A DNA stretch of 64,000 nucleotides. It comes from Lentzea sp. NBRC 102530 (GTDB taxonomy: Bacteria > Actinomycetota > Actinomycetes > Mycobacteriales > Pseudonocardiaceae). Position numbers and translations under genes: made by a program. Positions 49,542-64,000 of the stretch are shown here, piece by piece. Under the pieces are notes generated by a model. The model did not search any database. It was not told where the DNA came from and saw nothing but the letters and a program-made list of their open reading frames with translations. The stretch's first letter is position 1; every line of letters begins with the position of its first letter. The DNA is taken from contig NZ_BSTF01000009.1 of the NCBI RefSeq assembly GCF_030269365.1, positions 248,001 through 312,000 on the forward strand. Direction: 5' to 3'.

Positions 49542-51523
49542 GCCACGCGTTGTCCGCTCGTGTCGTTCACTTCGCTGGAGGGGATGATCAGCGCGTCCAC
49601 CGCGAGGACGCCGTCCGGTCCCACGCGCACCGGGTTCAGCTCGATCTCGGCCAGGTCCGGTCTGGCCGCCAGCGTCTCGGAGATCTGGGCGATCACCTCG
49701 GCCAACGCTGCCACGTCGACCGGCGGGGCGCCACGCGCGCCTGACAGGAGCGGGGCAGAGATGAGGCGTGCCAGCATGTTCCTCGCCGTGGCGGGGGTCA
49801 CGGGGGCGAGTTCGACGGCCGTGTCCCGCAGGAGTTCCGCGTGCACGCCGCCCGCTCCGACGAGGACGACCGGGCCGAACGAGTGGTCGCGCTGGGCGCC
49901 GATGATCAGCTCGACGGTGTGGTCGCGCCCGTCCATCTCCTCCAGGACGTACGTGCCCGGTCCGAGCCTCGCGCGCATCTCGTCGAACGCCGCCGCGGGA
50001 TCGGTGAGGTCGAGCCGCACGCCGCCGTGCTCGCTCTTGTGCGCGAGCCAGTCGGCTTTGAGCGCGAACGGCCCGGTCAGCGGCGTGCCCGTCACGTCGG
50101 CGGCGGACGTCACGGCGTGGGCCCGCGGGAACCGCACGAAGTCCAGCAGGTCGCGGGCCGCGAGGTACCCGGGCCGGTACGCCGTGGTGGTCGTGGCGCG
50201 GGGAACCGCCGCCGCGGTGTGCCTGGTCAGGCGGTGCGCGTTGCCCAGGGCGGCCATCGCGCGTTCGATCGTGTGCTGGACGGGGACGCCGCCCGCGCGC
50301 AGCACCCGGACGGCGGCGGAGTCCGCGCGCATGCTGTGCACGAGCACGGGCACGCCGGTTTCCCTTGCCAGCGAGCAGATCCGGGTCGCCACGGTCACCT
50401 CGGCCGCCTCCAGCGACGGCGCGTCCTCGCCGTAGCTGCCGAAGTACCCGGACAGCACCACGGTGTCGATCTCACCGCCGCGCGCCAGCACCTCGACGGC
50501 CCGCGCGTAGTTCGCGAGGTCCTGTTCCCCCGTGCCGGCGAGGTCGATCGGGTTGCGCACGGACGCGCCGGCGGGCAGACCGTCCACAGCGGACAGTGGC
50601 GGCACCGCGAGACCCGCCGCCACCGCGAGGTCGGCCGCGATGGCGCCCTGACCACCCGAGTCGGAGATGACCCCCACCCTGCTCCCGCCCGGCACCCCGC
50701 TCGTCAGCACCGACGCCAGGTCGACCAGCGCCGCGGGCGTCGTCACCCGGACCGCGCCCGCCCGGCGGCAGGCCGCGTCCACGACGTCCAAGGACGACGT
50801 CAGCGCGCCCGTGTGCGTGCGCGCGGCCTCCTGGGCGGCGAGCGAGGACCCGACGGTCAGCAGCACCACGGGCTTCCCGGCGGCGCGCAGGTCCGACATG
50901 GCCGCCACGATCCCGGGGCCGAAGCTCTCCAGGTACACCCCCACGACGGTGGTCAGGTCGTGGGACACCAGGTCCCGCAACGCTTCCGCGGCCGTCACGT
51001 CCGCCTGGTTGCCGACCGAGACGAACCTGCTGACGCCGATCCCCGTCGACGCCGCGAGCCCGGCGATCTCCAGCCCGACCTGCCCGCTCTGCGACACCAC
51101 GCCGAGCGATCCGGCCTGGAACCGGCCCCACGCGAGGTGCAGCGACGTCGCCGCGTCGAACACGCCCAGGCAGTTGGGGCCCAGCAGACGCGCGCCCGCC
51201 TCGCGGATGCGGCCGACGACGGCCTCGTCGATGCCCGCGGGGATGCCGACGAAGCCGCGCACGCCGACCGCGAGCGCCTCGTCCACCACGGCGGGCACGT
51301 GCGCCGCGGGCACGGCCAGCACGACCAGTTCGGGAGCCTCGTCCAGTTCGGAGAGCGACCGCACCGTGGGCCGTCCGAGCACGGCGCCGCCACCGCGGTT
51401 GACCAGGTGCACGGTGCGGCGTTCGTGGCCGTCGAGGGCACCGCGCGCGAGCCAGTGCCCCCACTTGGCGGGGTCGTCGCTGGCGCCGACGACGGCGACG
51501 GACGCGGGGTCGGAGAAGATCAT
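49538..51523 (-). CDS. ADP-forming acyl-CoA synthetase (fused alpha/beta)
   Basis: 661 aa. CoA-binding Rossmann domain (about 1-130; VAVVGASDDPAKWG), succinyl-CoA-ligase-like region (about 140-420; SQSGQVGLEIAG, phospho-His region) and a C-terminal ATP-grasp domain (about 430-661; FALKADWLAHKSEHGGV). It converts carboxylic acid + CoA + ATP to acyl-CoA + ADP, or the reverse. Overlaps the acyl-CoA dehydrogenase upstream and the ThDP enzyme downstream by 4 bp each: a tight three-gene operon. Confidence 0.9.
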   Translation of the reverse strand: MIFSDPASVAVVGASDDPAKWGHWLARGALDGHERRTVHLVNRGGGAVLGRPTVRSLSELDEAPELVVLAVPAAHVPAVVDEALAVGVRGFVGIPAGIDEAVVGRIREAGARLLGPNCLGVFDAATSLHLAWGRFQAGSLGVVSQSGQVGLEIAGLAASTGIGVSRFVSVGNQADVTAAEALRDLVSHDLTTVVGVYLESFGPGIVAAMSDLRAAGKPVVLLTVGSSLAAQEAARTHTGALTSSLDVVDAACRRAGAVRVTTPAALVDLASVLTSGVPGGSRVGVISDSGGQGAIAADLAVAAGLAVPPLSAVDGLPAGASVRNPIDLAGTGEQDLANYARAVEVLARGGEIDTVVLSGYFGSYGEDAPSLEAAEVTVATRICSLARETGVPVLVHSMRADSAAVRVLRAGGVPVQHTIERAMAALGNAHRLTRHTAAAVPRATTTTAYRPGYLAARDLLDFVRFPRAHAVTSAADVTGTPLTGPFALKADWLAHKSEHGGVRLDLTDPAAAFDEMRARLGPGTYVLEEMDGRDHTVELIIGAQRDHSFGPVVLVGAGGVHAELLRDTAVELAPVTPATARNMLARLISAPLLSGARGAPPVDVAALAEVIAQISETLAARPDLAEIELNPVRVGPDGVLAVDALIIPSSEVNDTSGQRVA

Positions 51524-52686
51524 CTGGCACCGAGGCCGCGGGAGATGATCAGGCGCTGGATGTCCGAGGTGCCTTCCTCGATCTCCTCGAGCTTCGCGTC
51601 GCGCATCCAGCGTTCGACGGGGTGCTCACGGGAGTACCCGTAGCCCCCCAGCGTCTGCACGGCGGCGTGCGTGCACCACATGGCGTTCTCGGAGCCGACG
51701 AGCTTGGCCATCGCCGACTCCTGCGCGACCGCGTGCCCGTCGTCGTGCAGCGTCGCCGCCCGGACGGTGAGCAGGTGCGAGGTGTCGACGCGGGTGGCCA
51801 TGTCCGCGAGCCGGAACGCCACAGCCTGGTGCTGAATGATCGGCTTGCCGAACTGCACGCGTTCGGTGGCGTACGCGGTGGCGAAGTCCAGTGCGGCGCG
51901 GGCGAGTCCGGTGGTGGCGGCGCCGATCAGGATGCGCGAGGCGTCGAAGGTCCGCATCAGGCCGGCGAACCCCTGCCCCTCCTCGCCCAGCCGGTCCGCG
52001 ACGGGCACGCGCACGTCGTCGAGGAACACCTCGGCGTTGACGATCGCGCGCTGCCCCATCTTCTTCAACGGTGGCCCGACGGTGAGCCCCGGCGCGGACC
52101 GCGGCACGACGAAAGCCGTGACACCACGGGACCTCAGCGCCGGATCGACGGTCGCGAAGATCACGAACATCTCGGCGTACGGCGCGTTGGAGATCCACGT
52201 CTTCTGTCCGTTGAGGACGTACTCGTCGCCCTCGCGCCGCGCCGACGTCCGGATGCTCGCCGCGTCCGACCCGCTGCCGGATTCGGTGACGGCGACGGCG
52301 GTGAGCGGTGGTGCCGCGCCGCAGAGCGGTGTGAGGAACCGTTCCTGCTGCTCGGGTGTGCCGAGGATTTCGATCGGAGCGCTGAAGAACCCGTTCGAGG
52401 TGACCAGGTTGCCGATGCCGATGTCGCCGTGGCACAGCTCCTGCTGGACCAGCACCTGGGTGAGCAGGTCCGTGACGCCACCGCCGCCGAACTTCTCCGG
52501 GAGCATGAACGAGGTCAGCCCGAGCGCCGCCGCCTTCTCCCACACGTCGAGCGGCGACTCGGTGTCCGCCTCGTCGACGGCACGCCCGCGCGGCCGGATC
52601 TCGCGCGCGGCGAACTCCCCGGCCAACTCGACGAACTGCTGTTGTTCGGCCGTGAGCCGCAGGCCGTCGCGGACGGTCCGCCCCAT
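51520..52686 (-). CDS. Acyl-CoA dehydrogenase
   Basis: 388-aa FAD enzyme. AVTESGSGSDAASI and WISNAPYAEMFVIFA are the FAD/substrate signatures. C-terminal QTLGGYGYSREHPVERWMRDAKL carries the GGYGY and R-D motif. The catalytic Glu would be expected near the end, but the exact subfamily (short chain, isovaleryl or glutaryl-like) is unclear. First gene of the ligase/ThDP operon; operator B lies 16 bp upstream. Confidence 0.92.
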   Translation of the reverse strand: MGRTVRDGLRLTAEQQQFVELAGEFAAREIRPRGRAVDEADTESPLDVWEKAAALGLTSFMLPEKFGGGGVTDLLTQVLVQQELCHGDIGIGNLVTSNGFFSAPIEILGTPEQQERFLTPLCGAAPPLTAVAVTESGSGSDAASIRTSARREGDEYVLNGQKTWISNAPYAEMFVIFATVDPALRSRGVTAFVVPRSAPGLTVGPPLKKMGQRAIVNAEVFLDDVRVPVADRLGEEGQGFAGLMRTFDASRILIGAATTGLARAALDFATAYATERVQFGKPIIQHQAVAFRLADMATRVDTSHLLTVRAATLHDDGHAVAQESAMAKLVGSENAMWCTHAAVQTLGGYGYSREHPVERWMRDAKLEEIEEGTSDIQRLIISRGLGAR

Positions 52687-52701
52687 CTCGCACCCCTAAA
52701 T

Positions 52702-52719
52702 TGACTGACGAATCAGTTA
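52702..52719. promoter_or_regulatory. Operator B: TGACTGACGAATCAGTTA
   Basis: 16/18 identical to operator A at 41408-41425 and placed 16 bp before the acyl-CoA dehydrogenase start. It should block transcription when bound. Confidence 0.75.
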
Positions 52720-52799
52720 TTCACGATCCAGGGGGCAGCCTAGCTCCGCCAAGACGCCTCATGAGGTCCGCGAACGGGTGACTACCAGGGCAGATGCGA

Positions 52800-53519
52800 T
52801 CACTCGCCTGGAGCAGCGGACCAACTGACAGCACACACGCTCGACTCCACGGCGTCGCTGAAAGTCGCGCCGGGGAACGCGAGCGCGTACTCGCGGCGGA
52901 ACTCCTGACGGCTCAGCACGTGCGCGTCCGCCGCCAGGTTCCGCCACTGCTCGTGCCGCTTGAGCCGCACGGCGGCGAGCGCGTCCCCGACCGATCCCCC
53001 GGCCACACCGGCCCGCACCGCGCCGCGGACCGTGCGCCCGAGGCGGTAAACCCGGTACGCCACCGGGTTCGCGGCCCAGCGAGGGGTGTGCCGGACGACG
53101 TCGACGACCACGACCTGACCGCCGGGCCGCACGAGCCGCCGGACGTGCGCCAGGTAGGCGGCCGGGTCGGAACCGAGGTGGTGCAACGTGTTGACGCCGA
53201 GCACGAGGTCGAAGACGCCGAGACGCTCCGGTGTCGCCTCCCACAGGTCGCCGACGTCGCACTTCACCGCCGGGAACCGCGCCTGCGCCAGGTCGATCAT
53301 GCGCGCGGAGGCGTCCACCCCGACCACCTCGCCGTAGCGGTCGGCCAGCAGGTCGAGGAACCGGCCGGAGCCGCACCCGAGGTCGATCGCCCTGCCGCCG
53401 GACGCGGGCAGCACGCCCGTGATCCAGCGGCGGAAGCGGTCCTGCGTGAGGGACGCGAACCTGTCGTACAGGTCGGCGATCGGGTCGAACGTCGCGCCGG
53501 ACGTGCGGCGCACCTTCAT
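52800..53519 (-). CDS. Class I SAM-dependent methyltransferase
   Basis: 239 aa from ATG 53519. Motif I AIDLGCGSGRFLDLLA, motif II VVGVDASARMID, and VFDLVLGVNTLHHL define the Rossmann methyltransferase fold (UbiE/Methyltransf_11). In-frame upstream starts (53558, 53588) would translate through two palindromes and were rejected. Downstream of the GntR gene on the same strand. Substrate unknown; a link to the lysine locus is positional only. Confidence 0.8.
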   Translation of the reverse strand: MKVRRTSGATFDPIADLYDRFASLTQDRFRRWITGVLPASGGRAIDLGCGSGRFLDLLADRYGEVVGVDASARMIDLAQARFPAVKCDVGDLWEATPERLGVFDLVLGVNTLHHLGSDPAAYLAHVRRLVRPGGQVVVVDVVRHTPRWAANPVAYRVYRLGRTVRGAVRAGVAGGSVGDALAAVRLKRHEQWRNLAADAHVLSRQEFRREYALAFPGATFSDAVESSVCAVSWSAAPGE

Positions 53520-53547
53520 GATCACGTTGACGGAGAACGTGATCATG
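53517..53547. promoter_or_regulatory. 12-bp-arm inverted repeat over the methyltransferase start
   Basis: CATGATCACGTT-GACGGAG-AACGTGATCATG, perfect arms. The ATG of the methyltransferase lies within one arm. It may be an operator or an RNA hairpin that masks initiation. Confidence 0.65.
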
Positions 53548-53560
53548 GTGGTGACCATTG

Positions 53561-53578
53561 TGGAACGTTGCCGTTCCA
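53561..53578. promoter_or_regulatory. Inverted repeat between GntR and methyltransferase genes
   Basis: TGGAACG-TTGC-CGTTCCA, perfect 7-bp arms, 29 bp after the GntR stop. Confidence 0.55.
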
Positions 53579-53606
53579 GAAACCGCAATACACCCAGGAG
53601 AGTGAC

Positions 53607-53960
53607 CTAAGCGCGCAGAGCCGCGCGCACGATCTCCAGCGCCTCCTGAGGTGCGAGCCCCAGCTCCGCGGACATCGCCGCGTAGTGGGCAGCCGCCGCA
53701 CGAACGCGTTCGCGGTTGCTGTCGCCGTTCGCGCTGACCACCGTGCCTGCCCGGCCCCGCGTCTCGACGAGACCGGCTTCTTCCAGCTCACGATAGGCGC
53801 GCGCCACCGTGTTGACCGCCAGACCGAGGTCTTTCGCCAGGGCCCGCACCGTGGGCAACTTGGCGCCCACGGGCAACTCCCGGTTCGAGATGGCGTGTGC
53901 GTAGTGCACGCGCACCTGCTCGTACGGAGGTGTGTCCCCCTGGTGGTCGATCTTCACCAC
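53607..53960 (-). CDS. GntR-family regulator, YtrA type
   Basis: 117 aa from GTG 53960; GGGGAGGA lies upstream. Winged helix PPYEQVRVHYAHAI ... LPTVRALAKDLGLAVNTVAR, then a short helical tail without an effector domain, as in YtrA-subfamily GntR proteins. It lies 178 bp downstream of kal on the same strand and next to the methyltransferase. The palindrome GTAGCTAC (53979-53986) sits in its upstream region. Candidate regulator of the lysine locus. Confidence 0.85.
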   Translation of the reverse strand: MVKIDHQGDTPPYEQVRVHYAHAISNRELPVGAKLPTVRALAKDLGLAVNTVARAYRELEEAGLVETRGRAGTVVSANGDSNRERVRAAAAHYAAMSAELGLAPQEALEIVRAALRA

Positions 53961-54137
53961 GCCGCATCCTCCCCGCATGTAGCTACTTCTGTATTGACCA
54001 ACGGGAGAAGGCGGCGGAGGTTGCGGTCAATTCAACGCGGATTCTTCCGTGCTCCGCTCGGGGAGAGCGGGAGGCCGGCGACGGCCGGGCTCACGACGGG
54101 GTCGGGTCGGCCACCGGCCCGACCGCCGCCCTGGGAG

Positions 54138-54536
54138 CTATTCCGCGGCTTTCGGCGCGACGACCGTGCCACGAGCCCGCGTCACGACGATCGGCTCGGC
54201 GAGCAGGTCCGCCGCCGACGGACCGCGTTCCGGCGCGGACCGGCACACCACGCGCGCCTCGAACTCGATCTCCCGCGACCGCTTCCCGATGCGCACGAGC
54301 GTCGCGGAGGCCTCGATGACGTCACCGGCCTGGATCGGCGCCACGAACTCGACGGAGCTGTACCCCGCGAACAGCCCCTCGTCCGCGTCGGTGTGGATCA
54401 GCAACTCCGTCGCCACGTCACCGAACATGCCGAGCCCGTAGGCGCCGTCGACCAGGTTGCCGCCGTAATGCGCGTGAGAGTGCGGCACGTACCGGCGGTG
54501 CGTCACCACGAAACCCTCGACCAAAGCTCCGCTCAC
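54138..54536 (-). CDS. kal: 3-aminobutyryl-CoA ammonia-lyase
   Basis: 132-aa hot-dog protein. [20 protein letters not shown] and [23 protein letters not shown] fit Kal, which eliminates ammonia from L-3-aminobutyryl-CoA to give crotonyl-CoA in lysine fermentation. On fold alone it could be a thioesterase; the position behind kamE with a 4-bp overlap decides for Kal. Confidence 0.85.
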
Positions 54537-55285
54537 GCGGCGACCCCCTTCTTCTCCTGCATCGCGTGCACCAGGTAGCTCGCGACCTCACCGGGCGTGG
54601 TACCCCGGCTGAACACCCGGTCAACCCCGAGTTCGCCCGCCATCAACGGGTCGAAGCGCGGACCGCCGGCCACGAGCAGCGGCCGCCGGTCCCCCATCGC
54701 CTCGCGGAACGCCGCCGACATCTCCTGCGTGTTCAGGATGTGCGCGTCCCGCTGCGTCACGACCTGCGAGATCAGCACCGCGTCGGCCTTCTCGGCCCGG
54801 GCGGACCGCACGAGTTCCGGAACGCTGACCTGCGCGCCGAGGTTCACGACCTTCAGCTCGCGGTAGTACTCCAGGCCCTTCTCGCCCGCGAACCCCTTGA
54901 TGTTGAGGATCGCGTCGATGCCGACGGTGTGCGCGTCCGTGCCGATGCACCCGCCGACGACGACCAGCTTGCGCCGCAACACCTTCTTCAACGCACTGTT
55001 CACTTCGGACGGTGACAGCAGCGGGTACTCGCGCTCGACGACCTTGACCTCGTCGAGGTCCACCAGGTGCTTCACCGAGCCGTACACGACGAAGAACGTG
55101 AAGTCGTCGCCGATGGGGTTCGAGTGGACCACCATCGCGGGGTCCATGCCCATCTTGTTCGCGAGCTGCAACGCCGCGCCGTCCGCCTTGGGGCCGAACG
55201 GCACCGGCAGCGTGAACGACGTCTGGATCATGCCGTCGCCGGTGGTGTCCCCGTACGGCCGCACGTACTTCTTCGCGTCAGACAT
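54533..55285 (-). CDS. kamE: Lysine 5,6-aminomutase beta subunit
   Basis: 250 aa. The adenosylcobalamin-binding motif D-x-H-x-x-G is D117-A-H119-T-V-G122. Lys130 in [14 protein letters not shown] is 11 residues after His119, the same spacing as His133 and Lys144 (the PLP lysine) of the clostridial enzyme. With KamD it moves the terminal amino group of beta-lysine to C5, giving 3,5-diaminohexanoate. Overlaps kamD by 8 bp and kal by 4 bp. The length, about 250 aa, is normal. Confidence 0.93.
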
Positions 55286-56849
55286 CGCTCGCCTCCAGCA
55301 TCTCCGAAGCCGGGTTGAAGTACGCGGGAGCCTTCTCCACGACCCCGTCCGCGCCCTTGCCCTTGTCCGCCGGGCGTTTCATCAACCCGAACGTCCCGTC
55401 GGCGATCGCGTTCAGCAGCCCGTCGTCCACGATCCGCTCCAGCAGGTCCACGGCCTCGCCGAGCACCTGGTGCGCGCGCTTGACGATCAGGCCGTCCGGC
55501 GAGGGCCGGAAGTCCTCGGCGAGGCTGCCCGCCGCGTTCAGCACGTACCGGACGTTCTTCAACGCGAGGTCGCGGTCGGAGAGGAACGGCGTCACGACCG
55601 CCTCGGTCATCATGCCCACCAGCAGGATCGACTGTCCCGTGAGGACACCCGCGAGGTTGAAGAACCCGTCCAGCAGGTAGCCGTCGAACACGTCGCCGGT
55701 CATGTGCTTGGTCGGCGGCATCCACTTCAGCGGCGCGTCCGGGAAGAGCTCGCGGGCCAGCAGCGCGTGCGCGAGCTCGAGCCGGAACGAGTCGGGCACC
55801 TTCGGGTTGATCTCGAACGCGTGCCCGAGGCCCAGCAGGTGGTCGGGCAGCCCCGCCTCGTGGGCGAAGTGCTCGTTGAGCAGCTGGGACACGGTCACGG
55901 TGTGCGCGGCGTCGACGGCGTCCGCGGTGGTGAGGTAGTTGTCCTCGCCGGTGTTGATGATGATGCCCGCGCGGGCGTGCACCTGGCGGGAGAACCGCTG
56001 GTCCACGAACGTCCGGATCGGGTTGATGTCGCGGAACAGGATCCCGTACATCGAGTCGTTCAGCATCATGTCCAGGCGCTGGAGTCCCGCCAGCACCGCG
56101 ATCTCCGGCATGCACAGGCCGGACGCGTAGTTGGTCAGCCGCACGTACCGGCCGACCTCCTTCGACACGTCGTCGAGCGCCGCGCGCATGATCCGGAAGT
56201 TCTCCTGCGTGGCGTAGGTGCCCGCGAACCCGTGGTGCGTCGCGCCTTCCGGCACGTAGTCGAGCAGCGACTGCCCGGTCGAGCGGATCACCGCGATGAT
56301 GTCGGCGCCCGCGCGGGCCGCGTTCTTGGCCTGGACGACGTCCTCGTCGATGTCACCGGTCGCGACGATCAGGTAGATCCACGGCCGTTGCGCGGGATCA
56401 CCGAGCTTGGCGACGAGCTTGTCGCGCTGGACCTTGTTGCGGTCCACGGTCTTCAGTCCCTTGGCGACAGCCGAGGTCGAGGCCTTCCGCGCCGCTGTCA
56501 GGTCCTTGCCGGTCGGGATCGTGAACTGGACCTGCCCCGCGGCGGTGGCCTCGGCGAGTTCCGTCAACGAGCCGAGGTTGTGCTGGCGCAACGCGTGGAA
56601 CGCCGGCAGCACCACGCCGTGCTCAAGCCCGCACTGCTCGCGCACGGTGTCGATCACGCGGTTCACCCACGGCACGTCACCGGCGCGGTGCGTGGAGTCC
56701 GCGCCGATGATGCCCGCGAGGCGGAGGGTGGCGCGCTCGACGGCAACCGTGGTGTGCGCCTTCGCGAGGGACACCACCGGTTCGGCCGCCCGCGCCGCGA
56801 GTTCGCGCGCGGTGGCGACCACCGAGGGGTCGAGGTCGAGCAACGCCAT
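55278..56849 (-). CDS. kamD: Lysine 5,6-aminomutase alpha subunit
   Basis: 523 aa, the usual KamD length, a TIM-barrel chain binding PLP phosphate and the cobalamin. Diagnostic stretches include GDVPWVNRVIDTV, ATGDIDEDVVQAKNAARAGAD, HHGFAGTYATQENFRIMR and LPDHLLGLGHAFEINP. ATG 56849 is preceded by AGAGGAAG. It follows the amidohydrolase by 3 bp and overlaps kamE by 8 bp, so the two subunits are made together. Needs adenosylcobalamin; no B12 genes or riboswitch were found in the window. Confidence 0.95.
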   Translation of the reverse strand: MALLDLDPSVVATARELAARAAEPVVSLAKAHTTVAVERATLRLAGIIGADSTHRAGDVPWVNRVIDTVREQCGLEHGVVLPAFHALRQHNLGSLTELAEATAAGQVQFTIPTGKDLTAARKASTSAVAKGLKTVDRNKVQRDKLVAKLGDPAQRPWIYLIVATGDIDEDVVQAKNAARAGADIIAVIRSTGQSLLDYVPEGATHHGFAGTYATQENFRIMRAALDDVSKEVGRYVRLTNYASGLCMPEIAVLAGLQRLDMMLNDSMYGILFRDINPIRTFVDQRFSRQVHARAGIIINTGEDNYLTTADAVDAAHTVTVSQLLNEHFAHEAGLPDHLLGLGHAFEINPKVPDSFRLELAHALLARELFPDAPLKWMPPTKHMTGDVFDGYLLDGFFNLAGVLTGQSILLVGMMTEAVVTPFLSDRDLALKNVRYVLNAAGSLAEDFRPSPDGLIVKRAHQVLGEAVDLLERIVDDGLLNAIADGTFGLMKRPADKGKGADGVVEKAPAYFNPASEMLEASDV

Positions 56850-56852
56850 CAG

Positions 56853-58391
56853 TCACTTCCTCTCGTAGATCGTCCGGCCGTTCAGGACGGTCCGCACGCA
56901 GACGGGCGCGGGGCCGGTGAGGTCGGGCAGGCCGGGCACGCCCGACCGCGGGTCGGTCGACCAGCGCTGCACGCGGGCGTCGGACCCGGCGACGACGAGG
57001 TCACCGGTCTCCCACACCGCGTACGTCGCGGGCGCGCCGGGCTGCAACGTGCCGGTCAGGCCGTCGTTGACGCCCGCCGCGCGCCAGCCGCCGCGGGTGT
57101 GGGCGGTGAACGCGGCGCGCGGCGAGATGCCGTGGCCCTCGGTGCGGTGGTGCACGGCGGCCTTCACGGTCGCCCACGGGTCGATCGCCGTCACGGGCGT
57201 GTCGGAGCCGAACGCGAGCACCACACCGGCGGCGGCGAGCTTCGAAAAGGGGTTCAGCCCCACTCCTCGCTCAGCCCCGAGCCGCTGGGAGTACATCCCG
57301 GCCGGCCCGCCCCACTCGGCGTCGAACAACGGCTGGACGGACGCGATGACACCCCACCCGGCCAGTTTCGCGGCCTGCTCCTCCGACACCATCTCGACGT
57401 GTTCGAGGCGGTGCCGCGCGGACGCCAGCGACGGCGTGCCGATCGCCTTCTCGGCGAGCTCGAAGCCCTCGACCACGGCGGCCATCCCCGCGTCGCCGAT
57501 GACGTGGAACCCCGCCTGCACCCCCAGCTCGTCACACCGGACGAGGTGATCGGCGATCTGCCGGCCGTCGAGGTAGAGCGCCCCGGACGTGGCGGCGTCG
57601 GCGTAGGGCTCGGTCAGCGCGGCCGTGCGCGAACCGAGGGCGCCGTCGACGAAGTGGTCCCCGGCGAGACCCCGCACCTCGACGCCCGGCAGCTCGGCCG
57701 CACCCCAGTAGGCCACCACCTCGGGCCCCTCGGTGTGCGCGAGGAGTTCGCGCAGGTCGTCCTCGCCGGAGATGTCCGGACCAGCGCACTCGTGCACGGA
57801 CGCGATGCCCATGGACGCAGCGTGACGCAGGAACGCCAGTTGCGCGGCCTGACGTTGTTCGGACGTGATGGCGGCTTTCGCCGTACCGCGCACGTGGTGG
57901 TGGGCAGCGCGCGAGAGCGGGCCGTCCTCCGAGAACCCGTCGGCGTTGCGCGCGTCGTCGGTGATCAGGTCGGACGAGACCAGCGCCGAGTGCACGTCGA
58001 TACGCGACAGGTAGACCGTCTTGCCCTGCGCGGCCTCGTCGATCTCGGCCCGCGTGGGCGGCCGGTTCTCGCTCCAGCGCGTCTCGTCCCACCCGTGCCC
58101 CCAGACGAGGGGGCCCTCGGCGGCGCGGACCTGGTCGAGCAGGTCGTCGGCCGAGGACGTCTTCGTCAGGTCGAGGCCGGTCAGCAGCAGGCCGGCGGAC
58201 GTGGCGTGCACGTGCGCGTCGACGAACGCGGGCGCGACGAACGCGCCGTCCAGCTCGATGACCTCGGCGTCGGGGTGCAGCGCGTGCCCGACCGAGTCCT
58301 GTCCGATCCACACGACGACGCCGTCCGTGACGGCCATCGCCGTCGCATCCGGTGCGTAGATGCGGCCGCCGACCAAAAGTTGCGTACTCAC
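56853..58391 (-). CDS. YtcJ/amidohydrolase-3-family metal hydrolase
   Basis: 512 aa from GTG 58391. Metal-dependent TIM barrel: VDAHVHATSAG, SVHECAG, RHRLEHVEM and FGSDTPV hold the His/Asp ligands. Related to YtcJ and N-substituted-formamide deformylase. It sits between kdd (1-bp gap) and kamD (3-bp gap), so belongs to the lysine operon, although no hydrolase is part of the known route. It might act on a lactam, cyclised or N-acylated aminoacid intermediate; that is inference. Confidence 0.88.
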   Translation of the reverse strand: MSTQLLVGGRIYAPDATAMAVTDGVVVWIGQDSVGHALHPDAEVIELDGAFVAPAFVDAHVHATSAGLLLTGLDLTKTSSADDLLDQVRAAEGPLVWGHGWDETRWSENRPPTRAEIDEAAQGKTVYLSRIDVHSALVSSDLITDDARNADGFSEDGPLSRAAHHHVRGTAKAAITSEQRQAAQLAFLRHAASMGIASVHECAGPDISGEDDLRELLAHTEGPEVVAYWGAAELPGVEVRGLAGDHFVDGALGSRTAALTEPYADAATSGALYLDGRQIADHLVRCDELGVQAGFHVIGDAGMAAVVEGFELAEKAIGTPSLASARHRLEHVEMVSEEQAAKLAGWGVIASVQPLFDAEWGGPAGMYSQRLGAERGVGLNPFSKLAAAGVVLAFGSDTPVTAIDPWATVKAAVHHRTEGHGISPRAAFTAHTRGGWRAAGVNDGLTGTLQPGAPATYAVWETGDLVVAGSDARVQRWSTDPRSGVPGLPDLTGPAPVCVRTVLNGRTIYERK

Positions 58392-58392
58392 G

Positions 58393-59403
58393 TCACGCAG
58401 TCTGCCGTTGCTCGAACAGCGCCCGCACACCCGCCCGGGTCCGGACCAGGTCCAACGCGAACTGGGCGTGACCAGGCACATAGCCGTTGCCCACGATCAT
58501 CTCCACGTCCGCCGCGAGCCCCTCCGCACCGAGGGCGGCCGCGCTGAACGAGGTGGCCATCGAGAAGAAGACCACCGTGCCGCCGTCCGCGGTCGCGAGG
58601 ATGGCGCCGTGCTCGCATCCGGGCACGTCCACGCACACGACCGTGACGTCGACCTGCTTGCCCACCGCCTCGGCGACGGCGACGGGGTTGCGTGCGTCGG
58701 CGATCACGACCTCGTCGGCGAGGCCGGACTCACGAACCTGTGCTGCCTCACGTTCCGTGGGCACCAATGCGACGAGACGCGACGCACCTGCCTGACGTGC
58801 GGCCGCAAGAGAGAGCGACCCGGACTTGCCGCCACCGCCGAGCACGAGCACGGACCCACCGGGGTGCCTGCGCACCACACGGTCGGTCAGTGCCGGTGCA
58901 CCACACACGTCGAGCACGGACAGCGCGAGTTCGTTGGGCATGTCGTCCGGCAGGACGGCCGCGATCGACCGGCCGAACAGCACGGCGGTCCCCTGGCACG
59001 GCACCTGCTCGTCCTCGCCGTCCCAGTCCCGCAGGCCGTCGGTGATCCGGAGCGGCGTGAGCGTGAGGCTGACCAGCGTCGCGATCCGGTCACCGGCCTT
59101 GAGCCCGAGCGGCGACTCCGGCCCGGCCTCGAGGACGGTGCCGAGCAGCATCCCGCCGGACCCGGTGACCGGGTTCTGCATCTTGCCGCGCTCGGAGACG
59201 ATGTCGAGGACGGCCTGCCGGACCGCGGCGCCGTCGCCGTGCTGCTCCCTGAGCTGCCGGAACGACGCCGCGTCGAGGTTCAGCCGCTCGACCGAGACGA
59301 CCACCTCGTCGGGGGCGGGCACGGGGTTCGCGTCGAGCCGCCACGCCTGCTGCGGCAGTACCCCGGCCGGTTCGAGGACGCGGTGCAGTCCGTACGCGCT
59401 CAC
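58393..59403 (-). CDS. kdd: L-erythro-3,5-diaminohexanoate dehydrogenase
   Basis: 336 aa from GTG 59403, with GAAGGA 7 nt upstream; the longer frame to 59532 runs into the preceding gene. Zinc-less MDR fold: VLVLGGGGKSGSLSLAAARQ is the nucleotide-binding motif, and GSGGMLLGTVLEAGPES and VPGHAQFALDLVRT are typical of Kdd. It oxidises 3,5-diaminohexanoate to 5-amino-3-oxohexanoate with NAD(P)+. First gene of the kdd-amidohydrolase-kamD-kamE-kal run; upstream 70 bp holds palindromes shared with kamA. Confidence 0.9.
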   Translation of the reverse strand: MSAYGLHRVLEPAGVLPQQAWRLDANPVPAPDEVVVSVERLNLDAASFRQLREQHGDGAAVRQAVLDIVSERGKMQNPVTGSGGMLLGTVLEAGPESPLGLKAGDRIATLVSLTLTPLRITDGLRDWDGEDEQVPCQGTAVLFGRSIAAVLPDDMPNELALSVLDVCGAPALTDRVVRRHPGGSVLVLGGGGKSGSLSLAAARQAGASRLVALVPTEREAAQVRESGLADEVVIADARNPVAVAEAVGKQVDVTVVCVDVPGCEHGAILATADGGTVVFFSMATSFSAAALGAEGLAADVEMIVGNGYVPGHAQFALDLVRTRAGVRALFEQRQTA

Positions 59404-59434
59404 GCGAAAATCCTTCGGTCGACGACGCTGTCTC

Positions 59435-59463
59435 GAAGATATCTTCACGTGAACCGTAAAGAT
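59435..59463. promoter_or_regulatory. kdd operator region
   Basis: Palindromes GAAGATATCTTC (59435-59446) and TTCACGTGAA (59444-59453) overlap. Read differently: ATCTTCACG-N5-CGTAAAGAT (59441-59463), an inverted repeat with one mismatch. GATATCTTCACG recurs as GATATCTTTACG before kamA. Confidence 0.65.
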
Positions 59464-59473
59464 TGCGCAAGCA

Positions 59474-60982
59474 TCACTCGACAGATACGCGGAACCAGCG
59501 GCAGTCGTAGGGTGCGAGGTCCACCTTGGCACCGGTCTTCGCCGGCTTCACGGGCTCACCGGTCAGCACGTTCGTGAGCACGCCTTCCGCCGGAACCCGG
59601 ACGGTGACCTCCTCGTCCGCGAAGTTGTGCACGACGATCACGGCCCCGCCGTCGCAGTCGGCGCGATGGGCGAACACGCGCGGATCGCCGACGTCGAGCA
59701 CCTTCACCTCGCCCCACGCCAGCTCGGGGCACTCCCGGTAGCACTCGACCAGCCGCCGCATCCAGGTCAGCAACGAGTCGGGGTCGTGCCTCTGCTCCCC
59801 CGCGGCACCCCAGTCCATCGGCACCCGCACGGCGAGCCTGCCCTCCAGCGACAGGTCCTCCTCCAGCCCGATCTCCTCGCCGTAGAACAGCACGGGCGTG
59901 CCCGGCAGGCTGAACAGCAGGCTGTAGACCATCCGGATGCGGCGCTGGTCGCCGTCGAGCATGCCGGGCAGTCGCCGGCGCAGGCCCCGCCCGTAGAGCT
60001 GCATCTCCGGTTTCGGGCCGAACGCGTCGAAGACCTCCTGGCGTTCGTCGACCGGCAGCTTGTCGAGGGTGAGCTCGTCGTGGTTGCGCACGAACGTCGC
60101 CCAGTGGCCGTCGCGCGGCGGGTGCGGGCGTTCCTGCAACGCCTTGGTGAGCGGACCACTCGACTTCCGCGCCAGGGCCAGGAACATCGCCTGCATGCCG
60201 ACGAAGTCGAAGCACATGCTCAGCTCGTCGCCGACGCCCTGACCGTAGAACGCCATGATGTCCTTGTACGGCAGGTTGACCTCGCCCAGCAGCACACCCT
60301 CACCGTTGCGGCGGTTGAGGAACGCCCGCAGGTCCGTGAGGTAGTCGTGGGGGTCGGGCAACGCGAGGGCGTCCATCGGGTCGTTGTGCTCCAACAGGAA
60401 CGGGACGGCGTCGACGCGGAACCCGCTCAGCCCCAGTTCCATCCAGAAGCCCATGATCCGGGCGATCTCGTCGCGGACCTGCGGGTTGGACACGTTGAGG
60501 TCGGGCTGGTGCTTGTAGAAGCGGTGCAGGTAGTACCTGCCGACCTCCTCGGAGTACTCCCACAGCGAGTTCTCCTTGTCGGGGAACGTGATCCCCTGCG
60601 GTCCGTCCTCCTGCGGTTCGTCGGCCCAGACGTACCAGTCGCGCTTCTCGGGGTCGTGGAACCACGGGTGCTGGTCCGAGGTGTGGTTCACGACGAGGTC
60701 CGCGATCACGCGCAGGCCGCGGTCCCGTGCGGCGCGCACGAACTCCACGAAGTCGCCGAGCGAACCGAGCCGCGGGTCGACGTTGTAGAAGTCGGTGATG
60801 TCGTAGCCGTCGTCCTGTTCGGCGGTCGGGTAGAAGGGCATCAACCACACACACGTGACGCCGAGTGCGTGGAGGTGGTCGAGGTGTTCGGTGGCACCGC
60901 GGAAGCCATCAGGGGTGAAGGTCTCCACGTCGAGGCAGTAGAGGACGGCGTTCTTCCACCAGACGTCGGACGTGCGGATCAC
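59474..60982 (-). CDS. GH13 alpha-amylase-family enzyme (trehalose-synthase-like)
   Basis: 502 aa from GTG 60982, overlapping the LLM stop by 4 bp with GGAGGT upstream. GH13 conserved regions: DLVVNHTS (region I), GFRVDAVPF (II, nucleophile Asp), GEVNLPYK (III, Glu) and FVRNHDEL (IV). The N-terminus WWKNAVLYCLDVETF and length resemble trehalose-synthase-like hydrolases/isomerases rather than secreted amylases; no signal peptide, so cytoplasmic. Cotranscribed with the LLM gene. Confidence 0.9.
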   Translation of the reverse strand: MIRTSDVWWKNAVLYCLDVETFTPDGFRGATEHLDHLHALGVTCVWLMPFYPTAEQDDGYDITDFYNVDPRLGSLGDFVEFVRAARDRGLRVIADLVVNHTSDQHPWFHDPEKRDWYVWADEPQEDGPQGITFPDKENSLWEYSEEVGRYYLHRFYKHQPDLNVSNPQVRDEIARIMGFWMELGLSGFRVDAVPFLLEHNDPMDALALPDPHDYLTDLRAFLNRRNGEGVLLGEVNLPYKDIMAFYGQGVGDELSMCFDFVGMQAMFLALARKSSGPLTKALQERPHPPRDGHWATFVRNHDELTLDKLPVDERQEVFDAFGPKPEMQLYGRGLRRRLPGMLDGDQRRIRMVYSLLFSLPGTPVLFYGEEIGLEEDLSLEGRLAVRVPMDWGAAGEQRHDPDSLLTWMRRLVECYRECPELAWGEVKVLDVGDPRVFAHRADCDGGAVIVVHNFADEEVTVRVPAEGVLTNVLTGEPVKPAKTGAKVDLAPYDCRWFRVSVE

Positions 60983-61938
60983 GCGGTCACCTCCGGTAAG
61001 ACGTGCTCGCCGAACGCGTCGACGAAGGCGGTCAGGTCCTGGCCGACGTGGTGCAGGTAGATCTCCTCGAAGCCGAGTTCCGCGTAGGCGTGGAGTTGCT
61101 CCGCGTGCCACTTCAGGTCCGATGACACGTTCACGACCTTGGCGACTTCTTCGGGCGTGACGTGTTCGGCGGCGATGTCGAAGTGCTCGGCCAGTTCGAG
61201 GTCCCAGCACACGGGCGGGCGGAACACGTTGGTGCGCCACTGCTCGTGGGCGGTTTTCGTCGCGGTGTCCTCGTCGGGGTCCCAGCTCAGGTGCACCTGG
61301 AGGTGCAGCTTGCCGCGGCCGCCGGCGTCGCGGTAGGCGTCGGCGAGCGCGCGCAACCGGTCCGGTGGCGCGTTGACGGTGATCAGGCCGTCGGCCCACT
61401 CCGCACACCACCGGGCGGTCTCGGGGCTGACGGCGGCGCCGATCAGCAGCGGCACCTCGTCCGGCCGCGTCCACAGCTTCGCGCGGTCGACCGTGACCAG
61501 GCCGTCGTGGCTGACCTCCTCGCCTTCGAGGAGTGCGCGGATGACGTCGACACACTCGCGCAGCCGTCGCGTGCGGACGTCCTTGCGCGGCCAGCCGTCG
61601 CCGGTGATGTGCTCGTTGCTCGCCTCGCCGGTGCCGAGCGCGGCCCAGAACCGGCCGGGGTACATGGCGGCGAGGGTGCCGATCGCCTGGGCGGTGATCG
61701 CCGGGTGGTAGCGCTGGCCCGGTGCCGTGACCACGCCGAACGGCAGGTTCGTGGCCTGCAGCGCCGCGCCGAGCCAGGACCAAGCGAACCCGGACTCGCC
61801 CTGCCGCGCGCTCCACGGCGAGAAGTGGTCGGAGCTCATCGCGGCGGAGAACCCGGCCTGCTCGGCCCTGGTCACGGCGTCGAGCAGGCGGGCGGGATGG
61901 ATCTGCTCATGTGACGCATGGATGCCGTAAACGGTCAT
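60979..61938 (-). CDS. LLM-class flavin oxidoreductase (TIGR03885-like)
   Basis: 319 aa from ATG 61938. Luciferase-like TIM barrel: GIHASHEQIHPARLLDAVTR, SSDHFSPWSARQGESGFAW, ALGTGEASNEH and WADGLITVNAP. It resembles the FMN-type LLM subfamily often found next to trehalose-synthase-like GH13 proteins, as here. Donor and substrate unknown. Upstream lies the divergent ssgA-like gene. Confidence 0.85.
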   Translation of the reverse strand: MTVYGIHASHEQIHPARLLDAVTRAEQAGFSAAMSSDHFSPWSARQGESGFAWSWLGAALQATNLPFGVVTAPGQRYHPAITAQAIGTLAAMYPGRFWAALGTGEASNEHITGDGWPRKDVRTRRLRECVDVIRALLEGEEVSHDGLVTVDRAKLWTRPDEVPLLIGAAVSPETARWCAEWADGLITVNAPPDRLRALADAYRDAGGRGKLHLQVHLSWDPDEDTATKTAHEQWRTNVFRPPVCWDLELAEHFDIAAEHVTPEEVAKVVNVSSDLKWHAEQLHAYAELGFEEIYLHHVGQDLTAFVDAFGEHVLPEVTA

Positions 61939-62080
61939 GCGCTTCCAGGTACCCACCAAGCTCGCGGGGGAAGCACTCCCAGGTCAGAGCGCTCCGAAAA
62001 AATCTTCGACGAGTTCTTGAACCGGCTCGCGACCACGTCCGTGTTGATGGCAGCACCCTCACCGCGGAGGAGGAACGGCG

Positions 62081-62476
62081 ATGTTCAACGAGACCCGGGT
62101 CGGCACAGCCACCGTCGTCGAGTTCATCCGGCCGGACGGCTCGGTCGAGCCGATGAGCGTCGACCTCCAGTACCGATCAGACGATCCGCATGCCGTGACC
62201 ATGCGTTTTCAGGCGCGCGACCAGGAGTCGACCTGGCTCGTCGGCCGCGAACTGCTCGCCGACGGCATCCTGTCGCCGTCCGGGCTCGGCGACGTCCGGC
62301 TGCGGCCCGGTGACGGGGACGTGCTCGTGCTGGAGCTCTTCACCGAGGACTCGCACGCCGTGTTCCACCTGTCGGCGGCGGAGCTGCAGAAGTTCCTCGA
62401 CTCGACGTACGCGGCGGTGCCGGCCGGGCGTGAGGTCCTCGACTTCGAGCTGTTGATGAAGGACCTGCTCGGCTGA
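62081..62476 (+). CDS. SsgA-family sporulation/cell-division regulator
   Basis: 131 aa. Features of SsgA-like proteins: MRFQARDQESTWLVGRELLADGI, SPSGLGDVRLRPGD and LSAAELQKFLDSTYA. ATG 62081 follows GGAGGAACGGCG. The size fits SsgB/SsgA (130-145 aa). These proteins steer FtsZ placement in sporulating actinomycetes. It converges on the GNAT gene with a 9-bp gap. Assignment to SsgB or another paralog is not possible from this sequence alone. Confidence 0.88.
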   Translation: MFNETRVGTATVVEFIRPDGSVEPMSVDLQYRSDDPHAVTMRFQARDQESTWLVGRELLADGILSPSGLGDVRLRPGDGDVLVLELFTEDSHAVFHLSAAELQKFLDSTYAAVPAGREVLDFELLMKDLLG

Positions 62477-62485
62477 GCGCTCCGG

Positions 62486-63046
62486 CTAGAGGCGCAGTCC
62501 CATCACGAGCTTGTCCGCGGAGTCGATCACGCGGAACCCCAGGTGTTCCCAGAAACCGATCGCGTGTGTGTTGTGGTGCCGCACGTGGATGTGGACGCCC
62601 TTCTCCAGGCGTTCGAGCACGGTGCGCACGAGCGTGCCGCCGAAGCCCTTGCCCTTCGCGCGGGGCAACAGGTTCGCGTGCAGGTGCGCCGGATAGTCCC
62701 TGACCAGGAACGGGTCCACGCGCGGCGGGTGGTGGATGTGCCGCACGATCCGGTTCGGGTCCCCGGTCAGCGGGTAGCGCACCCGCAGGTCGGGCCACCA
62801 GTCGCGGTCGCAGCGATCTTCGAACGCCTCGGTGTCGGCCGTCGCGAGCGCGTAGCCGGCGATGCCCTCGTCGTCCTCGGCCACGAACACCAGGTCGGGT
62901 TCGAACGCCGCGTACGGGCCGACGAAGGCGTGGCCCATCAGCTTCGGATCCTCGAACAGGTGGCGCGCGCCGAGGCCGCCGTCGCCGGTGTCGAGGCAGA
63001 TGTCGTAGAGCGCGTCCAGGTCGGGCAGCCGGTACGCGCGGATCAC
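62486..63046 (-). CDS. GNAT-family acetyltransferase
   Basis: 186 aa from GTG 63046. IRAYRLPDLDALYDICLDTGDGG at the start, LLPRAKGKGFGGTLVRTV (acetyl-CoA loop) and NTHAIGFWEHLGFRVID (motif B) place it in the GNAT branch that includes the C-terminal domain of bacterial O-GlcNAcases. Start overlaps the FxsA stop by 4 bp. Substrate unknown. Confidence 0.85.
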   Translation of the reverse strand: MIRAYRLPDLDALYDICLDTGDGGLGARHLFEDPKLMGHAFVGPYAAFEPDLVFVAEDDEGIAGYALATADTEAFEDRCDRDWWPDLRVRYPLTGDPNRIVRHIHHPPRVDPFLVRDYPAHLHANLLPRAKGKGFGGTLVRTVLERLEKGVHIHVRHHNTHAIGFWEHLGFRVIDSADKLVMGLRL

Positions 63047-63507
63047 GTGAGCTCGCGCCGTTCCGTGATGACGACCGGGCCCGCGTCCACGTCGACGACC
63101 TCGCCCTCGACGACCTGACCGGCGCCGAAGCGGCGTTCGTGCTCGAACTTGAGCGCCGCGGCCTCCGCCTTCCGCGCGATCCGCCTGCTCACGAGCTTGC
63201 GCGTGGGTGGGAAGAGCAGGAACAACGCCACCACGTCGCTGATGAAGCCCGGCACCATGATCAACGCACCGGCCGTGGCGATGAGCACGCCGTCCGCCAT
63301 CTCCTGGTGCGGCTGCTGGCGGTTGAACACCGACTCCCGGAACGCGGCCATCACCTGCGCACCCTGGCGGCGCACGAGCGACAGACCCACCAGGGTTCCC
63401 AGCAGGAGCAGGGCGATCATCCAGAGCCCGCCGATGGCGTTGCCGACGGCGACCATGACCGCGATCTCGGCGAACATCCCGAGCAGCAGCAGCGCGAAGA
63501 GGGGCAT
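63043..63507 (-). CDS. fxsA: FxsA-family inner-membrane protein
   Basis: 154 aa. Two membrane helices at the N-terminus (LFALLLLGMFAEIAVMVAVG, IGGLWMIALLLLGTLVGLSL) and two central (DGVLIATAGALIMVPGFISD, VVALFLLFPP), with the FxsA motif VPGFISD. A charged C-terminal tail follows. FxsA in E. coli antagonises phage-exclusion protein PifA; the wider role is unknown. Coupled to the GNAT gene; divergent from kamA with a 131-bp gap. Confidence 0.9.
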   Translation of the reverse strand: MPLFALLLLGMFAEIAVMVAVGNAIGGLWMIALLLLGTLVGLSLVRRQGAQVMAAFRESVFNRQQPHQEMADGVLIATAGALIMVPGFISDVVALFLLFPPTRKLVSRRIARKAEAAALKFEHERRFGAGQVVEGEVVDVDAGPVVITERRELT

Positions 63508-63572
63508 GTCCGTGTCAACGAACGAGGTCGCGTCTTTGCTCCCGACCAGCTCTCCACCAGGTCTTGAGCTGA

Positions 63573-63614
63573 AATATTTACGGCAAGCTAGCGATGTGAC
63601 AGGATATCTTTACG
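63573..63614. promoter_or_regulatory. kamA upstream elements shared with kdd
   Basis: AATATTTACGG (63573-63583) and GATATCTTTACG (63603-63614) are direct repeats of the same word 32 bp apart. Matches near kdd: AATCTTTACGG (minus strand, 59464-59454; 10/11) and GATATCTTCACG (59438-59449; 11/12). TTGAGC (63564-63569) and TAGCGA (63589-63594) could be -35/-10. Confidence 0.6.
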
Positions 63615-63638
63615 CGACCTCGACGCTGAGGAGTACGG

Positions 63639-64000
63639 ATGACCGCGCTGCACGACGCCCCCACGGCGCTGGAGCGGCTGGACCGCCAGCCGTACACGTA
63701 CGTCCGCCGTGAGCTGGTCGAACCGGACTGGCGGCGGTTCCCCGGCTGGTCCCACGTGACCGAGGCGCAGTGGCGCGACGCCCAGTGGCAGCGCGTGAAC
63801 TGCGTGAAGAACGTGAAGCAGCTCCGCAAGGTCGCGGGTGACCTGCTCACCGACAAGTTCTACGACGACCTCGCCGCCGACCAGTCGGCGTTCGCGACGA
63901 TGTCGATGCTGATCCCGCCGCAGATGTTCAACACGATGGCGGTCGACGCCCCGCTGTCCCCCGACGCCTTCACCGAGGCGTTCCTGGCCGACCCGGTCCG
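63639..64000 (+). CDS. kamA: Lysine 2,3-aminomutase, N-terminal part (cut by window edge)
   Basis: 120 codons visible. ATG 63639 is preceded by GAGGAG at 5-nt spacing. VTEAQWRDAQWQRVNCVKNVKQLRK and FATMSMLIPPQMFNTM match the N-terminal region of radical-SAM lysine 2,3-aminomutases; the CxxxCxxC cluster motif lies beyond the window. It makes beta-lysine from lysine. Its promoter elements resemble those of kdd on the other side of the locus. Confidence 0.88.
   Translation, partial: MTALHDAPTALERLDRQPYTYVRRELVEPDWRRFPGWSHVTEAQWRDAQWQRVNCVKNVKQLRKVAGDLLTDKFYDDLAADQSAFATMSMLIPPQMFNTMAVDAPLSPDAFTEAFLADPV

Follow-up and report, generated by a model that had tools for sequence, protein, structure and literature searches.

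Two genes of a predicted lysine aminomutase locus, kdd and kamA, are held apart by other genes in Lentzea sp. NBRC 102530; do they nevertheless share an operator, and which protein would read it? The question arises from a 64,000-nucleotide stretch of this genome (RefSeq assembly GCF_030269365.1, contig NZ_BSTF01000009.1, positions 248,001 to 312,000; hereafter the window), in which a sequence-only reading had noticed pairs of similar short words in front of both genes, had taken them to mark one regulon, and had pointed to the GntR protein encoded beside kal as their reader. We conclude, with a probability of about 0.85, that kdd and kamA each possess a two-site operator, and that both operators are bound by an LrpA-type protein encoded on another contig (C10), which would control lysine catabolism.

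A direct check of the window letters confirmed the four words in position and strand, and reproduced the identities of 11/12 and 10/11 between the paired words. The pattern GATATCTTYACG, with up to two mismatches, has nine matches in the window, two of them exact (1.72 expected from shuffles), and the pattern AATMTTTACGG, with up to one mismatch, has two (0.06 expected). Throughout the genome (9,531,454 bases in 72 contigs) each pattern occurs in its exact form at two sites, which are the kdd and kamA promoters and no others; 15 additional places match GATATCTTYACG with one mismatch. The words turned out to be halves of 15-bp semi-palindromes (Table 1). The word GATATCTTCACG at kdd is paired, exactly 31 bp away, with the conserved GCGAAAATCCTTCGG and not with the inverted AATCTTTACGG (59454-59464). 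Two copies per promoter are thus present as claimed, but the reported contrast between an inverted pair at kdd and a direct pair at kamA does not hold, because it depended on the words chosen: the conserved kdd pair has the same 31-bp spacing as the kamA pair. A scan of the window with a matrix trained on other families, requiring at least 5 per site and a sum of at least 18, yielded exactly two pairs at 31 bp, 59404/59435 (kdd) and 63569/63600 (kamA); among all remaining spacings between 16 and 79 bp there was a single pair, at 50 bp. A further 32 stretches of the same genome (132,007 bases; one of them, L078, overlaps the window) contained no additional 31-bp pair, and five pairs were present at other spacings besides the 50-bp pair at kdd. 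The distal kamA site is kept within the genus, and kdd site 1 is kept in Lentzea and Saccharothrix loci.

Relatives of the locus were then compared. Of 390 genomes in the family Pseudonocardiaceae, 103 have a kdd match (E ≤0.001), 102 of them above the cut-off; of 200 genomes in the order, 55 have one (53 above). Of the 150 loci examined, the family supplied 60 and other families of the order 10, and the remaining 80 are the best named loci of a longer list; some genomes enter twice. Since kamA and kdd are divergent in most of these loci (105 of 150, starts <420 bp apart), the window represents a derived state: in Lentzea (g1) and six g6 loci other genes separate kamA from kdd, or kamA lies beyond the stretch. 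The input to expectation-maximisation motif discovery, for which we set a width of 15 and about two sites per region, was 69 kamA-kdd gaps of families other than Pseudonocardiaceae, reduced to 56 by dereplication. Without a palindrome constraint the search returned CcGgAGgATtTcCGG, a near-palindromic 15-mer; with the constraint the score was 1280, against 470-553 in eight dinucleotide-shuffled sets. The resulting element consists of CCGGAGGATTTCCGG-like 15-bp semi-palindromes, two per kamA-kdd gap and 31 bp apart. The top two sites are separated by 31 bp in 46 of the 56 training regions and by 30-33 bp in 49 (shuffles, 4.8%), and in the held-out gaps of Pseudonocardiaceae the spacing is 31 bp in all 16 (36 before dereplication).

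The element also persists where the shared gap has been lost. Promoters were assessed separately where kdd and kamA are >420 bp apart or kamA falls outside the stretch. Of 37 such kamA promoters, 34 have 31 bp as their best spacing; of 45 such kdd promoters, 40 have 30-32 bp (31 in 21, 30 in 14 and 32 in 5), although the score of one of these, L141, is meaningless (-2.1). Over all 150 loci (2.58 Mb; sum at least 17), a 31-bp pair lies within 330 bp of a kdd or kamA match in 135, a count that includes the loci used for training and some genomes fetched more than once. Only two 31-bp pairs lie elsewhere in these loci, both about 42 bp before kamD matches, in Phycicoccus and Pedococcus (L251:16441 and L259:10677), which suggests that the operator stays with the pathway genes where a cluster is split. 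Two other patterns searched in genomes led no further. CGTRAA-n26-CGTRAA matches in 15 of 20 genomes, and in all 15 there is a match at kamA or kdd; eight matches lie elsewhere, and the control produced three. CGTRAAGATATGCTGCCA, with up to two mismatches, was found in 24 of 26 genomes, 23 times at kamA promoters (the position in G268 being unchecked); one more two-mismatch match, in G237, lies elsewhere, and three-mismatch matches are about as frequent as control matches.

Words as short as these might resemble one another by chance, or be leftover sequence without function, but their uniqueness in the genome, the successful prediction in held-out regions and the conservation across families leave this explanation a negligible probability. 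Neither are the exact words common in the genome, nor is the element missing before orthologous kdd and kamA genes; both results support the proposal of one shared regulatory element and one regulon. Readings as Rex-, MocR-, GlnR-, PHO- or CRP-like sites were entertained on the basis of consensus sequences and dropped.

A further explanation is that the word is core promoter and nothing more, with overlapping -10 boxes (TATCTT in the kamA direction, TATGCT or TATCTT in the kdd direction) and no operator. The proximal site does contain hexamers resembling a -10 box for either direction, as judged by eye rather than by a promoter scan, and in the window the proximal kamA site, exactly 31 bp from the distal one, covers such a hexamer, TATCTT (63605-63610). 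However, a -10 box leaves unexplained both the second semi-palindrome at a fixed 31 bp and the pairs before lat and kamD, and we consider it highly improbable that this is all. The operator may simply cover the -10, in which case both readings would be true together. At kdd, site 1 adjoins the start codon and contains the Shine-Dalgarno-like GAAGGA. Because the sites cover the kamA -10-like box and the Shine-Dalgarno and start region of kdd, binding should directly affect both genes. The third, inverted half-site upstream of kdd has, by eye, a TTTACG half that varies within the genus and a steady neighbouring CTTGCG. This CTTGCG (59466-59471, minus strand) stands upstream of the CGTGAA of the kdd site in Lentzea, g6 and single g94 and g71 loci, at a distance that appears similar across those loci; it may be the -35 box of a newer kdd promoter.

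What kind of protein would bind such a pair? According to PMC2995911, Lrp sites are 13-17-bp imperfect inverted repeats that lie two or three helical turns apart. The kamA/kdd element has 15-bp sites (at the preset width) with a 16-bp spacer, and two sites in helical phase, at 31 bp in most training regions, in every held-out gap and in both window promoters. Among the 150 loci, 53 have a linked Lrp gene (>50% identity), namely 40 of the 80 named, seven of the 60 family and six of the 10 order loci, from several families, and the gene is often tail to tail with kamA. The Lentzea genome has 15 AsnC/Lrp matches, and the best own match of the linked gene is G000:C10:142425-142883, here called L104. 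Of the linked Lrp matches of at least 120 residues, 53 of 54 are closest to L104 among 13 own paralogues (two short open frames, L102 and L111, were excluded). In a tree of 43 proteins (the 13 own and 30 randomly chosen linked ones) L104 falls inside the linked group, together with the linked members of the family, with support of 99/97, although several own paralogues are long-branched and uncertainly placed. L104 has an AsnC-type helix-turn-helix (PF13404) and an Lrp/AsnC ligand-binding domain (PF01037), both above cut-off, and its closest PDB chains are 2w25 (E 3e-52) and 2vbw (1e-51), which we take to be LrpA, Rv3291c. An L104 orthologue (E ≤1e-48) is present in 295 of the 390 family genomes and in all 103 that have a kdd match. 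The Lentzea gene overlaps the end of a gene for a creatinase/prolidase-like metallopeptidase M24 (L104:1471-1932 and L296:9869-11113), and lrp and M24 genes are also adjacent in several loci of the family.

The GntR protein near kal, named by the earlier reading, fits these distributions poorly. Its gene does adjoin the operon in Lentzea, Saccharothrix, g6 and g94 loci, which are lineages with separated kdd and kamA. However, a linked homologue (>60% identity) of this YtrA-like gene is found in only 23 of the 150 loci, all of them Lentzea, Saccharothrix, g1, g6 or g94 (stretch L078 ends before the window's own gntR), while the element stands near kdd or kamA in 135; unlinked GntR homologues elsewhere in the other genomes were not searched for. 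The gene and the element are therefore not conserved together, and linked GntR and linked Lrp genes never occur in one locus. The element, moreover, is found before lat, beside an Lrp gene. We give the GntR protein hardly any chance of being the reader, slightly less even than the promoter-only explanation. No other adjacent regulator stands out in Pseudonocardiaceae: among the non-core open reading frames that flank 11 reference loci, the most widespread, fxsA, had matches in 28 of the 60 family loci. Ten flanking proteins that were scanned proved to be peptidase, lipase, acyltransferase, ABC transporter, AMP-binding and one TetR protein, and two without a family.

The lat gene offered an independent test. 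LrpA binds upstream of lat in mycobacteria, according to PMC4726150, which cites Reddy et al. 2008, and for this reason we searched for LAT in the 200 order genomes; 63 were above the cut-off, and the best 30 loci were taken. The best pair within 150 bp upstream of lat has a spacing of 31 bp in 17 of the 30 and of 30-32 bp in 22, compared with means of 0.37 and 1.8, and maxima of 2 and 6, in 30 shuffles; best-pair scores average 16.7, against 1.9 in the shuffles. Of two control stretches, the one inside lat gave 31 bp in three of 30 (mean score 1.8; in shuffles a mean of 0.33 and a maximum of 2), and the one farther upstream of lat in one of 30. In 19 of the 30 loci lat is preceded, on its own strand, by an Lrp match, and all 19 are closest to L104 among the Lentzea proteins; the match ends 103-137 bp before the lat match in 17 loci and 279 bp before it in L310, and in L311 it is partial and 1.3 kb away. 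L104 thus groups with the kamA-linked Lrp proteins (by tree and best matches) and with the lat-linked ones (by BLAST, no tree), and not with its own paralogues. PMC3898074 lists lat of Mycobacterium tuberculosis under an LrpA/lat regulon, its transcript up 28-fold in starvation, which fits activation or relief of repression.

Another regulator, itself unlinked, could still read the operator, with the linked Lrp gene a neighbour for different reasons. The Lrp gene is indeed unlinked in Lentzea and present in many genomes without kdd. Yet two independent linkages, at the kamA and the lat loci, lead to one Lrp group, site size and spacing are typical of Lrp proteins, and an interaction of LrpA with lat has been reported (PMC4726150). 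We therefore regard another regulator as unlikely, though it is the strongest of the competing explanations.

Several observations weigh against the LrpA-type two-site operator. Among the split kdd promoters, 19 of 45 have a best spacing of 30 or 32 bp rather than 31 bp, and the matrix scan found no credible pair at kdd in L085, L141, L215, L239 and L268. At the kdd promoter of the window itself (L078) the 50-bp pair (18.3) narrowly beats the 31-bp pair (18.1); kdd site 2, with a score of 5.1 and rank 112, is weak alone, yet it is a member of the 31-bp pair. The Shine-Dalgarno overlap may explain part of the conservation of kdd site 1 in the family. On the side of the regulator, the Lentzea gene lies on another contig, unlinked to the cluster, its own 19-kb stretch has no 31-bp pair by matrix scan, and no Lrp match was found within the fetched 3-4 kb of 11 of the 30 lat loci. 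The L104 orthologue also occurs in 192 of the 287 family genomes without a kdd match, so that it must have other targets.

The mechanism that we propose is as follows. A dimer of an Lrp/AsnC protein would sit on each 15-bp site, and the two dimers, on sites 31 bp or about three helical turns apart, would be joined in a higher oligomer, probably an octamer, which is the common arrangement for proteins of this kind. The regulator would be the product of L104, as orthologue of the kamA-linked Lrp of many actinobacteria. Its binding would control the entry of lysine into the aminomutase pathway, in step at kamA and kdd, and repression or poised activation is to be expected, with lysine or an intermediate of the pathway as the switch. 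In most of the relatives examined a single operator between divergent kamA and kdd would serve both genes, and in the Lentzea lineage a gene block would have split kdd from kamA and left each side with its own pair, presumably by duplication of the operator. LAT and KDD, above their cut-offs in 63 and 53 of the same 200 genomes, share one genome only (G178), whereas about 17 would be expected if they were independent and the kinship of the genomes is ignored. We lean towards the wider view that lysine catabolism in Actinomycetota has a route-independent switch, made up of the LrpA-type regulator with its two-site operator. The switch would be coupled to one of two routes, lat or kamA/kdd, which are unrelated and nearly exclude each other, and after the split in the Lentzea lineage both halves would have kept a full operator.

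Table 1. Putative operator sites and genes of the locus (positions within the window; words held by the sites are those of the sequence-only reading)
Feature	Positions	Strand	Sequence or product	Score or match
kdd site 1	59404-59418		GCGAAAATCCTTCGG, reading CCGAAGGATTTTCGC in the kdd direction	matrix score 13.0, window rank 2
kdd site 2	59435-59449		GAAGATATCTTCACG, holding GATATCTTCACG (59438-59449)	31 bp from site 1
Inverted third half-site before kdd	59454-59468		AATCTTTACGG (minus strand)	score 5.2, rank 108
kamA distal site	63569-63583		CTGAAATATTTACGG, holding AATATTTACGG	matrix score 12.5, window rank 4
kamA proximal site	63600-63614		CAGGATATCTTTACG, holding GATATCTTTACG	score 8.7, rank 17
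GntR gene	53607-53978	-	GntR protein	best model NF053730 (Rv1152 family), 110 bits, below cut-off 170
kal	54138-54536	-	predicted 3-aminobutyryl-CoA ammonia-lyase	NF052388, 189 bits, cut-off 160
kamE	54533-55285	-	predicted lysine 5,6-aminomutase beta	NF052385, 344 bits, cut-off 280
kamD	55278-56849	-	predicted lysine 5,6-aminomutase alpha, downstream of kdd	NF052384, 694 bits, cut-off 600
kdd	58393-59403	-	predicted L-erythro-3,5-diaminohexanoate dehydrogenase	NF052381, 260 bits, cut-off 200
Gene block between kdd and kamA	59474-63507		amylase/TreS-like, luciferase-like, SsgA, GNAT, FxsA
kamA	63639-64000	+	KamA-like radical SAM protein, 462 aa, continuing past the window end (L078:5639-7027)

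From its protein families the neighbourhood looks like a lysine aminomutase pathway. The best model of the kamA product is lysine 2,3-aminomutase, TIGR03820, at 159.5 bits, below the cut-off of 525.4; it also stays below the cut-off of the KamA family TIGR00238 (157.9 against 199.2), and no Pfam match was found for it. It appears to be a diverged KamA-like protein, whose presumed activity rests on synteny, and the name kamA, given by the sequence-only reading, is retained because of that position. Its orthologues are 66-97% identical in the fetched loci, and the gene is highly conserved beside kdd in actinobacteria. Between kdd and kamD, here and in many clusters, lies an amidohydrolase gene (Amidohydro_3; 56853-58481), in a position that might have been predicted to hold a gene for a 3-keto-5-aminohexanoate cleavage enzyme (BKACE, PF05853); the sole full-length BKACE match of the genome is on another contig (C3). 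The gene block between kdd and kamA varies in content and length across Lentzea and g6 loci. No Rfam match reached the gathering threshold in positions 48000-64000.

A search of titles, abstract openings and open-licence PubMed Central text found no paper that describes this operator, and we regard it as a new operator of a known kind of regulator. With it, the actinobacterial 'lysine fermentation' genes gain a candidate regulator, a candidate operator and a testable inducer. If lat and kamA/kdd, which hardly ever occur together, are indeed placed under one operator, it would be a control module that has outlived the enzymes it controls.

Three known systems invite comparison. Escherichia coli Lrp belongs to the same family and binds DNA as oligomers, and the Lentzea protein scores 83.9 bits to its model, NF008370, far below the cut-off of 233 bits. 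E. coli Lrp is a global regulator, whereas here the 31-bp pair occurs only at lysine-pathway genes in the 150 loci scanned, which are not whole genomes. BarR, the beta-alanine-responsive Lrp of Sulfolobales, resembles the present case in several respects (PMC10201364): its sites are semi-palindromes of 15 bp that lie between divergent genes and are occupied by an octamer, and the spacers of Sa- and St-BarR are 15-17 bp, compared with 16 bp here. As described there, however, BarR is archaeal, has three to five sites, in Ah-BarR also with 27-29-bp spacers, and regulates its own gene together with an aminotransferase, whereas the Lentzea promoters have two sites each, and no sign of autoregulation was seen. 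The nearest counterpart is mycobacterial LrpA (Rv3291c) with lat (Rv3290c), because the Lentzea protein is closest to 2w25 and 2vbw, and because the 30-32-bp two-site pattern recurs upstream of lat in most of the fetched order loci. It differs in that the targets here are kamA and kdd, of the aminomutase route, and in that the Lrp gene is unlinked in Lentzea; the role of LrpA would thus extend from lat to a second lysine pathway.

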